A model generated the notes under the pieces. The model saw only the letters and a program-made list of their open reading frames with translations. It ran no database searches and was not told the DNA's origin. Positions 10,808 to 59,310 of a stretch of DNA of 64,000 nucleotides are shown here, piece after piece. Made by a program: the position numbers and the translations under genes. Source of the stretch: Prochlorococcus marinus str. MIT 9313 (GTDB lineage: Bacteria; Cyanobacteriota; Cyanobacteriia; PCC-6307; Cyanobiaceae); NCBI RefSeq assembly GCF_000011485.1, contig NC_005071.1:1181347-1245346 (forward strand), in the 5' to 3' direction. Positions within the stretch are counted from its first letter, which is position 1; each line of letters begins with the position of its first letter.

Positions 10808-11938
<1,131 letters not shown>

Positions 11939-37185: not shown

Positions 37186-38325
37186 ATGAGCTCGGCTGAG
37201 GAATCCAAAGCAGAAGGAGCCTCCGAAGCAACGGAAGGCACCGAGTCCTCATCTGAACCCGCTGAGTCCTCAGCTGCTGCAAACGACCTCAAAGTGAGTG
37301 CAGCCCAAGCTGCTCCCTCACAAGCCAACCCTGCTGTCCCTAAGACACCAGCTCAACAACAACCTGCTCCAGTTCAAGACAGCCCTGCTATCTCCAAGCC
37401 AAGCACCATCCCCTCAAGCCCAACACCAACTCCCAAACCCTCAGACGCTTCAGATGACCTCAAAGTGAGTGCAGCCCAAGCTGCTCCCTCACAAGCCAAC
37501 CCTGCTGTCCCTAAGACACCAGCTCAACAACAACCTGCTCCAGTTCAAGACAGCCCTGCTATCTCCAAGCCAAGCACCATCCCCTCAAGCCCAACACCAA
37601 CTCCCAAACCCTCAGACGCTTCAGATGACCTCAAAGTGAGTGCAGCCCAAGCTGCTCCCTCACAAGCCAACCCTGCTGTCCCTAAGACACCAGCTCAACA
37701 ACAACCTGCTCCAGTTCAAGACAGCCCTGCTATCTCCAAGCCAAGCACCATCCCCTCAAGCCCAACACCAACTCCCAAACCCTCAGACGCTTCAGATGAC
37801 CTCAAAGTGAGTGCAGCCCAAGCTGCTCCCTCACAAGCCAACCCTGCTGTCCCTAAGACACCAGCTCAACAACAACCTGCTCCAGTTCAAGACAGCCCTG
37901 CTATCTCCAAGCCAAGCACCATCCCCTCAAGCCCAACACCAACTCCCAAACCCTCAGACGGGCCCGAAGGCCTTGATCAAGGAGAGGAGTTGAAGCTGCT
38001 TTTGGAGAGACTGCGCAACTTCTTCAAGTTGAGCAACTGGATTAAGCAAGACGATCAGGCAAGCCCATGGCAACAACTGAGACGACCCGTTCTTCTCATT
38101 GCTGCACTGATCACCCTTGTGATTTTTGTTCGTATCTACGGCGGTATTTTGTCCACGATTGAGAGTGTTCCTCTGGCTCCATCTCTCTTCGAACTGGCCG
38201 GCATCCTCTGGCTGACATGGTTTTCAATCACCCGCCTGATCCGCAGCGAAGATCGACAGGATGTGATCTCCAAAGTGCGCACCCGATGGGAAGCCTTCCG
38301 TGGAACAACTGACAACAAGCCCTAG
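37186..38325 (+). CDS. CAAD-domain (CURT1-like) membrane protein with tandem Pro-rich repeats
   Basis: 379 residues. An acidic start (SSAEESKAEGASEATEG) is followed by four 57-residue repeats of the DLKVSAAQAAPSQANPAVPK type, rich in Pro, Ser, Ala and Gln, and then a C-terminal CAAD domain of about 110 residues with an amphipathic helix and two membrane spans (LLIAALITLVIFVRIYGGIL and LFELAGILWLTWFSITRL). CAAD domains occur in cyanobacterial aminoacyl-tRNA synthetases and in CURT1 thylakoid-curvature proteins. The repeat part is predicted disordered. It is divergent from gyrA. Confidence 0.85.
   Translation: MSSAEESKAEGASEATEGTESSSEPAESSAAANDLKVSAAQAAPSQANPAVPKTPAQQQPAPVQDSPAISKPSTIPSSPTPTPKPSDASDDLKVSAAQAAPSQANPAVPKTPAQQQPAPVQDSPAISKPSTIPSSPTPTPKPSDASDDLKVSAAQAAPSQANPAVPKTPAQQQPAPVQDSPAISKPSTIPSSPTPTPKPSDASDDLKVSAAQAAPSQANPAVPKTPAQQQPAPVQDSPAISKPSTIPSSPTPTPKPSDGPEGLDQGEELKLLLERLRNFFKLSNWIKQDDQASPWQQLRRPVLLIAALITLVIFVRIYGGILSTIESVPLAPSLFELAGILWLTWFSITRLIRSEDRQDVISKVRTRWEAFRGTTDNKP
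37285..37960 (+). repeat. Four in-frame 171-bp tandem repeats within the CAAD gene
   Basis: Copies begin at 37285, 37456, 37627 and 37798 (each at GACCTCAAAGTGAGTGCAGC); the last ends at 37960, 163 nt into the unit. I see no differences between copies along the parts I compared by eye, so they look recently duplicated or homogenised. The unit is 57 codons, so copy-number change preserves the frame. Confidence 0.95.
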
Positions 38326-57638: not shown

Positions 57639-58013
57639 ATGGCTTACCCCGAGTCTCAAGTCGTAATGGGCGGTTTGGTGCATATCCCCATTATCATTGG
57701 TGTTTTTTGGGCGCTAAACAACCTAACCACAGGCGGCAGCAAAGCCAAGAAAGCCGCAGAAGCTCAGGCCAAACAAGCGGCTGAGGAAGCTGCTGCCAAA
57801 GCCGCTGCGGAAGCGGCAGCCAAACAGGCTGCTGAGCAAGCTGCTGCCAAAGCTGCTGCGGAAGCGGCAGCCGCCAAAAAGGCTGCTGAGGCCGCAGCTT
57901 CCGCAGCTCCAGCGGCAACAGCAGCGACTCCAGTCAGCGGCGAAGCTGAAACATCACAAGCTTCTAATAACGACACTCAAGCCACTCCTGCCCCAGACCA
58001 AGAAGTGCTCTAG
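57639..58013 (+). CDS. Ala/Lys-rich protein with FNR-like N-terminal membrane segment
   Basis: 124 residues. The N-terminus MAYPESQVVMGGLVHIPIII followed by GVFWALNNL is a predicted membrane segment; residues 8-23 (VVMGGLVHIPIIIGVF) match residues 8-23 of FNR ([16 protein letters not shown]) at 10 of 16 positions, the rest conservative. The rest is a long Ala/Lys/Glu helix (KKAAEAQAKQAAEEAAAKAA), with an internal duplicated unit, then an Ala/Thr/Pro tail. It is TolA-like in composition only. It could share a membrane partner with FNR. Confidence 0.75.
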   Translation: MAYPESQVVMGGLVHIPIIIGVFWALNNLTTGGSKAKKAAEAQAKQAAEEAAAKAAAEAAAKQAAEQAAAKAAAEAAAAKKAAEAAASAAPAATAATPVSGEAETSQASNNDTQATPAPDQEVL

Positions 58014-58740
58014 GTATATAGTGCAGATTCTAAAAAGTCGTAAACATCAATCGATATAGATACACGTTCCCAAAAGTTGCTTGCAATCAAAAAAGCCTTG
58101 AGAAAGGCCAAATTTTCAATGGATTCAACTTTAAATAAATAGCCTCAGGGGAAAATTAATAGCAAAATATAATCAAGAGAGGGGCAACTTGAACTAAAAC
58201 TTCTCAAAGACATAGCTCATTAATAAGTTGACGCCAACCTAGTCAATACACAGGCACCTAGGGCTAGGACGTTCCAAGCGAAAGCAAACCATCAAATACA
58301 CAAGAAGACGAATAACAATTGGCCACCAACCCTAACTCGATATTTACATTCAGCCACCAATACGCAACACTCTCGCAGAAGACATGAAAACATAAACACA
58401 CAGCATCAACAAATCAACTCATACACCCCACAAGAAGCTCTAAATTCAAAGAAACAAGATAAACTATAAGGAAGAATTCGGTTGCAATAAAAAATGACTA
58501 CTAAACAATGTTCGCCAGAAAAGCCGATACTTATTCACGAACAAGCACAGGCAAGGACTTTGATTAACCACAAATGCTTTTCTTAAAATCCCTAACCGAG
58601 CAAACGTGAAAATTAATTCTAGAAATAAATCGATGAAATATTGAGCATTGCAGGATCAGAGATTTATCCAGAGATGACGAAAGAGAAGTTAATGACCAAA
58701 ATTGAAACGGTACATTAAGCCTATCTGTGTAAGGAACCAA
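58014..58740. other. AT-rich spacer upstream of porin stub
   Basis: A 727-nt stretch without a gene I can support; strongly AT-rich and A-rich on the plus strand. It probably contains the promoter and leader of the porin-like gene. A 64-codon minus-strand frame at 58564-58758 was not accepted. Confidence 0.5.
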
Positions 58741-59310
58741 ATGAAACTCTTCCAGCAATTGCTGGTGGCTCCTGCTGCTTTGGGCCTTATGGCACCAATG
58801 GCTGCTAATGCCGCAGACCTAGACATCAAAGGTGTGTCCGATTATTCGGCCTCCAGCGAGCAGGTCACCAGCATCTCCCAATCCCAAGATGTTTACCCAA
58901 CCGATTGGGCTTACCAGGCGCTGAGCAACCTGATTGAGCGCTACGGCTGTGTAGCTGGCTATCCAAGCGGAAGCTACCTCGGCAACAGAGCAATGACCCG
59001 CTTTGAAGCGGCTGCTCTATTGAATGCTTGCCTCGATCGCATCACTGAAGTCACCGACGAACTGCGTCGTCTGCTCAACGAATTCGAGCAGGAGCTCGCA
59101 ATCCTCAAGGGCCGTGTTGATGGGCTAGAAGCCCGCGTTGGTGAACTCGAAGCCACTCAGTTTTCCACCACCACCAAGCTGAAAGGTAAGGCATTCTTAA
59201 TAAGTCGAAGACTCAAAGGAGCCTGGATCAAATGCGTTGCTCAATACAAATACTGCTTTAACTTTTATCAGGATGAGATCGGCTTACAACAATCATCAGT
59301 CAAGAGCTAG
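58741..59310 (+). CDS. Truncated SLH-domain porin (barrel missing)
   Basis: 189 residues. The N-terminal part is that of cyanobacterial SLH/OprB porins: signal peptide (LLVAPAALGLMAPMAANA), the SLH domain DVYPTDWAYQALSNLIERYG with GNRAMTRFEAAALLNACLDR, and a coiled coil (ELRRLLNEFEQELAILKGRV). Full-length members (about 400-550 residues) then enter the beta barrel after FSTTTKLKG. Here the sequence switches to a basic, AT-rich tail (FLISRRLKGAWIKCVAQ) and stops. It may be a stub or a peptidoglycan/outer-membrane tether. ATG 58741 is the start. Confidence 0.78.
   Translation: MKLFQQLLVAPAALGLMAPMAANAADLDIKGVSDYSASSEQVTSISQSQDVYPTDWAYQALSNLIERYGCVAGYPSGSYLGNRAMTRFEAAALLNACLDRITEVTDELRRLLNEFEQELAILKGRVDGLEARVGELEATQFSTTTKLKGKAFLISRRLKGAWIKCVAQYKYCFNFYQDEIGLQQSSVKS

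Follow-up and report, generated by a model that had tools for sequence, protein, structure and literature searches.

A hydrophobic N-terminal module on the FNR of Prochlorococcus and on further picocyanobacterial proteins: a candidate docking segment at the PSI antenna

In most cyanobacteria, FNR is held by the phycobilisome. Where the enzyme sits on the membrane matters for the partitioning of electrons between cyclic flow and the production of NADPH. In plants, the enzyme is kept at the membrane by TROL/Tic62, and the CAAD domain of cyanobacterial aminoacyl-tRNA synthetases provides a precedent for a membrane-anchoring domain that is reused on soluble enzymes. Older remarks furthermore describe the FNR of Prochlorococcus as devoid of CpcD, and a transmembrane anchor fused to the enzyme would answer where it sits in these organisms. 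According to two reports, phycobilisomes of the CpcL type (CpcL-PBS) associate with PSI via their hydrophobic linker and carry FNR by its CpcD domain (PMC6479007, PMC10322944). A further report states that low-light Prochlorococcus have kept short rods that are detached, along with the linkers of phycoerythrin rods (PMC6921069), and the loss of CpcD is therefore not simply a loss of every rod. In the accessible portions of the open-access literature, we found no account that assigns a transmembrane N-terminus to the FNR of Prochlorococcus (an earlier notice is possible), nor one of a fused FNR transmembrane anchor that is reused on other proteins.

The shared segment in the MIT 9313 window

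The window, that is, the whole stretch of 64,000 nucleotides of Prochlorococcus marinus MIT 9313 analyzed here, encodes petH (10838–11938, ATG at 10838, with an in-frame TTG at 10829) and, in an open reading frame on the forward strand (57639–58013, ATG start), an Ala/Lys-rich protein of 124 aa that begins MAYPESQVVMGGLVHIPIIIGVFWALNN. The features of both genes are as follows:

10838–10927, forward strand: the module on petH (residues 1–30), in place of the CpcD domain; recovered by the profile; helix 5–30 in the AlphaFold model, block pLDDT 52–75; V8, G11, G12, H15, and P17 invariant in 24 FNRs
10928–11059, forward strand: FNR linker (residues 31–74), unconserved and rich in Ala, Lys, Pro, Ser, and Thr, as judged from composition and length; pLDDT mostly <50; no invariant residue
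11060–11938, forward strand: catalytic part of FNR (FAD- and NADP-binding, residues 75–366) with the stop codon; PF00175 at E=3.2e-24, PF00970 just above and PF00667 below cut-off, NF045929 from position 92 to its end
57639–57719, forward strand: N-terminal module of the Ala/Lys-rich protein (residues 1–27), consisting of a MAYPESQ head and the hydrophobic span VVMGGLVHIPIIIGVFWALN; profile E=1.6e-18; Kyte–Doolittle 19-residue maximum of 2.21 from residue 8
57720–58010, forward strand: tail of low complexity, rich in Ala, Lys, and Glu, followed by an end rich in Pro, Thr, and Ser

A first-pass annotation had claimed that the two proteins have an N-terminal segment in common at the same register and are otherwise unrelated, and both parts of this claim were borne out. 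The core occupies residues 8–23 in either protein (VVMGGLVHIPIIIGVF in the Ala/Lys-rich one) with 10 of 16 positions identical, and is preceded by MAYPESQ in the Ala/Lys-rich protein and by MAFNQTE in petH. When the organism's own genome (one contig of 2,410,873 bases) was searched with the first 43 residues of the Ala/Lys-rich protein, petH was recovered at E=1.3e-5 next to the query itself (1.3e-24), and nothing else matched at E≤0.1. A profile of 48 modules, which contains both window sequences, retrieved petH at E=2.5e-15; a third match of this profile, at E=0.009 to a 45-aa frame that starts with TTG (G000:389234), was discarded as chance. These values place the sharing of the segment beyond chance. 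Two hydrophobic 16-mers in the same register could in principle resemble each other fortuitously, and yet next to no weight can be given to this explanation, which is already refuted by the 43-residue query, the profile matches, and the conservation pattern of FNR: profile E-values reach down to 1e-20 in many genomes, and the same protein classes and conserved non-hydrophobic residues recur. As far as tested, the remainders of the two proteins have nothing in common: Pfam detected FNR domains in petH, whereas no Pfam or NCBIfam family scored above cut-off in the Ala/Lys-rich protein. The latter matches YidC and TolA models weakly (best E=8e-4), probably on account of its low-complexity tail. 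A search of PDB chains with the module gave no credible match either, the best one (E=0.15) being a designed protein.

Its FAD/NADP-binding domains identify petH as a cyanobacterial PetH/FNR, and it is distinct from the CpcD-domain type (FNRL), since its alignment to a CpcD-type FNR begins only at query residue 54. In agreement, NF058510 aligns only from profile position 90, and NF045929 covers petH with its positions 92–411 at 547.4 bits (cut-off 600 bits), the first 91 positions being unmatched. In the AlphaFold model, the catalytic part is better ordered (mean 71.9, pTM 0.65). A conserved internal start from which a short soluble FNR could be made was not seen in 35 FNR linkers: only five contain an ATG, the others GTG/TTG only or none, and the window linker has none.

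The module family and its alternation with CpcD

At E≤0.1, the 43-residue query matched 62 of 121 family genomes, of which the three weakest (G018, G059, and G111; E 0.01–0.1) are probably chance; a profile that includes divergent members matched 72 of 151, eight of them of Synechococcus type. Among the 64 matching genomes not of Synechococcus type, 52 encode at least two module proteins (E≤0.01). Other picocyanobacterial genomes with the segment on both kinds of protein of the noted pair were found, the absence of which had been named as the sequence-side argument against the first-pass annotation. Moreover, the segment is reused beyond this pair and occurs in no fewer than four architectures, namely as a fusion to FNR, on proteins of about 100 aa that are mostly Ala/Lys-rich, on longer proteins, and nearly alone. 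Reading proteins from the fetched loci and sorting them into rough length classes (with L078, which lacks the core motif, left out) gave 77 distinct module proteins, namely 35 FNR fusions, 24 proteins of 71–124 aa, 12 of 130–272 aa, and 6 of 36–46 aa. Gene conversion between copies was considered and rejected, as modules of different classes are not homogenized within genomes (identity 0.518 in 30 pairs vs 0.504 between genomes in 1879 pairs); modules of the same class share 0.593 between genomes (940 pairs).

Across the phylum (291 genomes), 28 genomes matched, including 5 outside the family; these five were dismissed as weak (E 4.7e-4 to 0.0046), covering positions 13–38 at most and lying in unrelated frames. 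When viral contigs were scanned with two module alignments, 0 of 9 and 0 of 12 pattern stretches were confirmed, and tblastn of phage records with two modules gave no match. In these collections, phages were not seen to carry the module.

A second hydrophobic stretch is present in 10 of the 12 longer proteins and absent in L071 and in L079, the one protein of Synechococcus type in this class. LysM was found in one of two longer proteins scanned: L067 (218–1033, reverse strand) consists of the module, a charged middle, a second hydrophobic stretch, and a terminal LysM domain. As LysM domains are normally extracellular and that of L067 comes after the second stretch, the middle would be cytoplasmic and the module head outside if both stretches span the membrane, and the module may be at work in the plasma membrane, too.

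The segment is a strongly conserved hydrophobic span throughout the family. The 19-residue hydropathy maximum (Kyte–Doolittle) is at least 1.64 in all 77 distinct modules. In an alignment of 24 of the 35 FNRs, the five invariant core positions are followed by a stretch without any invariant residue between 18 and 74 (F23 and V74 are nearly so). In the 48 mixed-class modules of the profile, picked by hand from the 77, G11 is invariant, H15 and P17 are kept in 47, and G12, V8, and Y3 in 45. The C-terminal flank is more positive than the N-terminal one in 68 of the 77, which fits an N-out/C-in orientation with FNR on the cytoplasmic side; nine do not show this bias, the window FNR with its equal flank charges among them, and for this protein the orientation relies on the family and on the need of FNR to face the cytoplasm. 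Taken together, hydropathy, charge bias, and the predicted helix are consistent with a module that would be inserted in the membrane in N-out/C-in fashion.

With the N-terminus of the window FNR as query, petH was matched in 113 of 121 genomes, and the same 113 were obtained with a CpcD-type FNR. Sorted by match start (CpcD-type denoting a start at query residues 1–24), 53 are of the module type and 58 reach into CpcD; the remaining two are G068, the petH of which is cut at the contig start, and G003. No FNR with both N-termini occurs in the matches of these 113 genomes. The proposal that the segment replaces the CpcD-like domain on FNR is accordingly supported by the 53 genomes, set against the 58 with a CpcD-type start.

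The exception, G003 (a single contig; petH region L087:583–2098), is instructive. Its FNR starts MYITFASLLSTPAPTAVLAGIGSILLFAIVGLVVGPDYDG, a different hydrophobic segment, and the module together with its own linker forms a separate protein of 115 aa, the frame of which stops 34 bases upstream of FNR. Over 48 residues, the new segment shares 65% identity with a small protein (73 aa) encoded elsewhere in this genome. Relatives of the segment were detected in 16 of 61 genomes, a count that includes G003 itself and two weak cases. The FNR anchor has thus been exchanged rather than lost, in a natural swap in one genome. That one hydrophobic segment was swapped for another argues that membrane attachment matters, and it also means that the module helix is not indispensable. 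The donor belongs to an unnamed family of small proteins with one hydrophobic stretch (for example, L173:762–983 and, on the reverse strand, L174:5565–5786), of which G003, G027, G056, and G060 carry a copy within at most about 3.5 kb of a stand-alone module gene.

These observations bear on the main rival of a specific docking segment, a generic anchor in the thylakoid or plasma membrane that has no specific partner and was spread by duplication and fusion as a signal-anchor. Cargoes as different as FNR and the LysM protein would suit such an anchor, as would the use of another hydrophobic segment by the FNR of G003. However, a mere hydrophobic anchor would be expected to drift, and the conservation of the core therefore counts against it: V8, G11, G12, H15, P17, and Y3 are kept across protein classes, and the core that is invariant in FNRs directly adjoins an unconserved linker. 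Considering also that the relatives of Synechococcus type adjoin PSI-antenna genes (see the following section), we regard the generic anchor as unlikely, albeit as the strongest competitor of the docking segment.

Gene neighborhoods

In the eight Synechococcus-type genomes with the module (G004, G025, G061, G089, G101, G119, G329, and G384, of 151), its sequence mostly has the form MALSxFExxxGGxTSIPV, with Ser where Prochlorococcus has His. A CpcD-type FNR is present in six of them, G329 and G384 lying outside the 121-genome FNR set. In these eight genomes, a gene encoding an IsiA/Pcb-like protein or a CpcL-like linker is found within 3 kb at 8 of 9 module loci; the same holds for 9 of 12 loci from a set of named Synechococcus single cells and MAGs, which overlaps the former by at least one record (L196 corresponding to G119). 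The arrangements differ: the module gene is divergent from an IsiA/Pcb-like gene in G101 and G329, upstream of it on the same strand in G384, downstream of it in G119, and divergent from a CpcL-like gene in G004, G061, and G089; a second copy in G061 lies about 1.3 kb from an IsiA-like gene, and near the module of G025 (L168) there is no IsiA or CpcL match. Such variety makes inherited synteny alone an unlikely cause. In the named set, an IsiA-like gene lies within 0.3 kb at four loci and a CpcL-like gene at five, with no IsiA or CpcL match at L187, L191 (where the sequence ends just after the module), and L192. The identity of the neighbors is supported by PF00427 in all three CpcL-like proteins scanned, a C-terminal hydrophobic stretch in all seven measured (2.25–2.83), and PF00421 in both IsiA-like proteins scanned. 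An IsiA/Pcb-like protein at least 76% identical to the query occurs, among the Synechococcus-type genomes of the 151, in exactly those eight with the module; the module is absent in ten genomes with IsiA/Pcb-like identities of 62–73% and in G099 and G114, for which the identity figure is lacking. This co-occurrence is not phylogenetically independent, as the counts share ancestry.

Directly following cpcL, a gene for a 4Fe-4S ferredoxin is found at six of eight CpcL-type loci (the exceptions being L165 and L186), which is company from the acceptor side of PSI. The ferredoxin and flavodoxin genes located near modules of Synechococcus type include:

L138:3085–3405, reverse strand: 4Fe-4S ferredoxin beside a CpcL-like gene
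L166:5699–6010, forward strand: the same; further cases at L185, L188, L189, and L190 (PF13370 in both ferredoxins scanned)
L192:9550–10113, forward strand: flavodoxin, 1.2 kb downstream of the module
L169:7694–8239, reverse strand: flavodoxin

The flavodoxins are a possible further link to iron limitation at PSI. In several Synechococcus-type stretches, flavodoxins and 2Fe-2S ferredoxins lie 1 to 7 kb away, a proximity that is suggestive only. Regulation by Fur or iron is not claimed: scored with a Fur-box consensus in 13 Synechococcus-type and 2 window regions, the best sites reached 14 at L185, 13 at L186, and 10–12 elsewhere, and shuffles of three regions gave a median of 11 and a 95% point of 13, which leaves all sites except that of L185 no better than shuffled sequence. 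As an aside, in one Synechococcus-type genome a protein of the nitroreductase family that weakly matches the model of the cyanobactin oxidase ThcOx is encoded 1.2 kb from the module gene (L135:1160–2650, forward strand).

Another scenario is that NDH-1 or cytochrome b6f, and not the PSI antenna, is the site to which the module fixes FNR, in support of cyclic electron flow. The reports on CpcL-PBS lend themselves to this reading, as they place CpcL-PBS with FNR in an NDH-1–PSI supercomplex (PMC6479007, PMC10322944). On inspection by eye, however, no ndh or b6f gene was recognized in the neighborhoods inspected, the recurrent neighbors being isiA-like and cpcL-like genes. By inference, these neighbors favor the PSI antenna, and docking to NDH-1 or b6f appears quite improbable, more so than a generic anchor.

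In Prochlorococcus, tblastn of 14 neighborhoods and the window found no IsiA/Pcb, CpcL, query-like ferredoxin, or flavodoxin; the neighbors recognized by eye are methionine-synthesis, transporter, and other genes. Adjoining the Ala/Lys-rich gene of the window is a reading frame (58702–59310, forward strand) that has the start of an SLH-plus-OprB porin and stops after 202 aa. Porins are usually far longer, and the gene is probably truncated. Elsewhere in the window, a CAAD-domain (PF14159) protein (37186–38325, forward strand) contains in its N-terminal part a unit of 171 bases that is repeated four times in perfect tandem (37285–37960), each copy encoding 57 aa rich in Pro, Ala, Gln, and Ser; the 100% identity of the copies suggests a very recent expansion.

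Proposed docking at the PSI antenna and comparison with known systems

Given that CpcL-PBS combine an association with PSI with FNR held via CpcD, the module is read here as a helical docking element for PSI antenna assemblies. It would represent a transferable single-pass transmembrane unit: the short MAYSE-like head would lie outside (in the lumen or periplasm), the GG..HIP core within the span, and the C-terminal cargo in the cytoplasm, attached through a flexible linker. In Prochlorococcus, where the FNR N-terminus is the module instead of CpcD, the enzyme would be held directly at the membrane and not at a phycobilisome rod, with a conceivable influence on electron flow. It is probable that the conserved core packs on a specific membrane partner, most likely a PSI antenna assembly, for which Pcb in Prochlorococcus and IsiA or CpcL-rod complexes in Synechococcus are candidates. 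The Ala/Lys-rich protein of the window would be a sister protein that occupies such a site with a flexible cytoplasmic tail of its own, which may act as a spacer or compete for the site. FNR would thereby have been placed at the PSI antenna directly when regular phycobilisomes were given up.

Of this proposal, the tethering of FNR is well supported and the partner is what we infer from the gene neighbors. On balance, we lean towards a single-helix docking segment that replaced CpcD and tethers FNR, probably at the PSI antenna. Several observations speak against this reading, namely the lack of antenna neighbors in Prochlorococcus, the LysM relative, Ser for His in Synechococcus, the four Synechococcus-type loci devoid of an IsiA or CpcL match, the shared ancestry of the eight genomes, the rods retained by low-light Prochlorococcus, the equal flank charges of the window FNR, and a module pLDDT of only 52–75. 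A wider version can be put forward more tentatively, as a possibility that we do not favor to the same degree: an undescribed family of single-helix docking proteins may serve the PSI antenna in marine picocyanobacteria, its members being encoded next to IsiA- and CpcL-like genes in Synechococcus and forming the FNR N-terminus in Prochlorococcus. In the latter, FNR would have exchanged the rod-binding CpcD domain for this helix as phycobilisomes were given up, and would thereby have entered the Pcb–PSI assembly, with Ala/Lys-tailed or bare paralogues occupying, spacing, or competing for sites.

Tethering of FNR as such is known; a fused, probably transmembrane anchor shared with other proteins appears to be new, and new is also the finding that its Synechococcus-type relatives are mostly encoded beside PSI-antenna genes. 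The isiA-like and cpcL-like neighbors point to an unrecognized small membrane protein of PSI antennas. Compared with TROL/Tic62, which are separate FNR-binding proteins, the anchor is here fused to FNR itself. The CAAD domain belongs to another Pfam family (PF14159, CAAD/CURT1, 85 positions) that is matched by neither module protein of the window. CpcL (CpcG2) likewise uses one hydrophobic span to fix antenna rods with FNR to the membrane and PSI, and in several Synechococcus-type genomes module genes are divergent from a CpcL-like gene; its span is C-terminal, however, whereas that of the module is N-terminal, and a Pfam search did not detect the CpcL linker domain PF00427 in the Ala/Lys-rich protein. 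Closest is the three-domain FNR of phycobilisome-containing cyanobacteria (FNRL), with the same FAD/NADP catalytic part, a flexible linker, and an N-terminal tether that places FNR at a light-harvesting complex. In FNRL, tethering relies on a soluble CpcD domain and its binding to a rod linker, whereas the module FNR carries a single hydrophobic helix in its stead.
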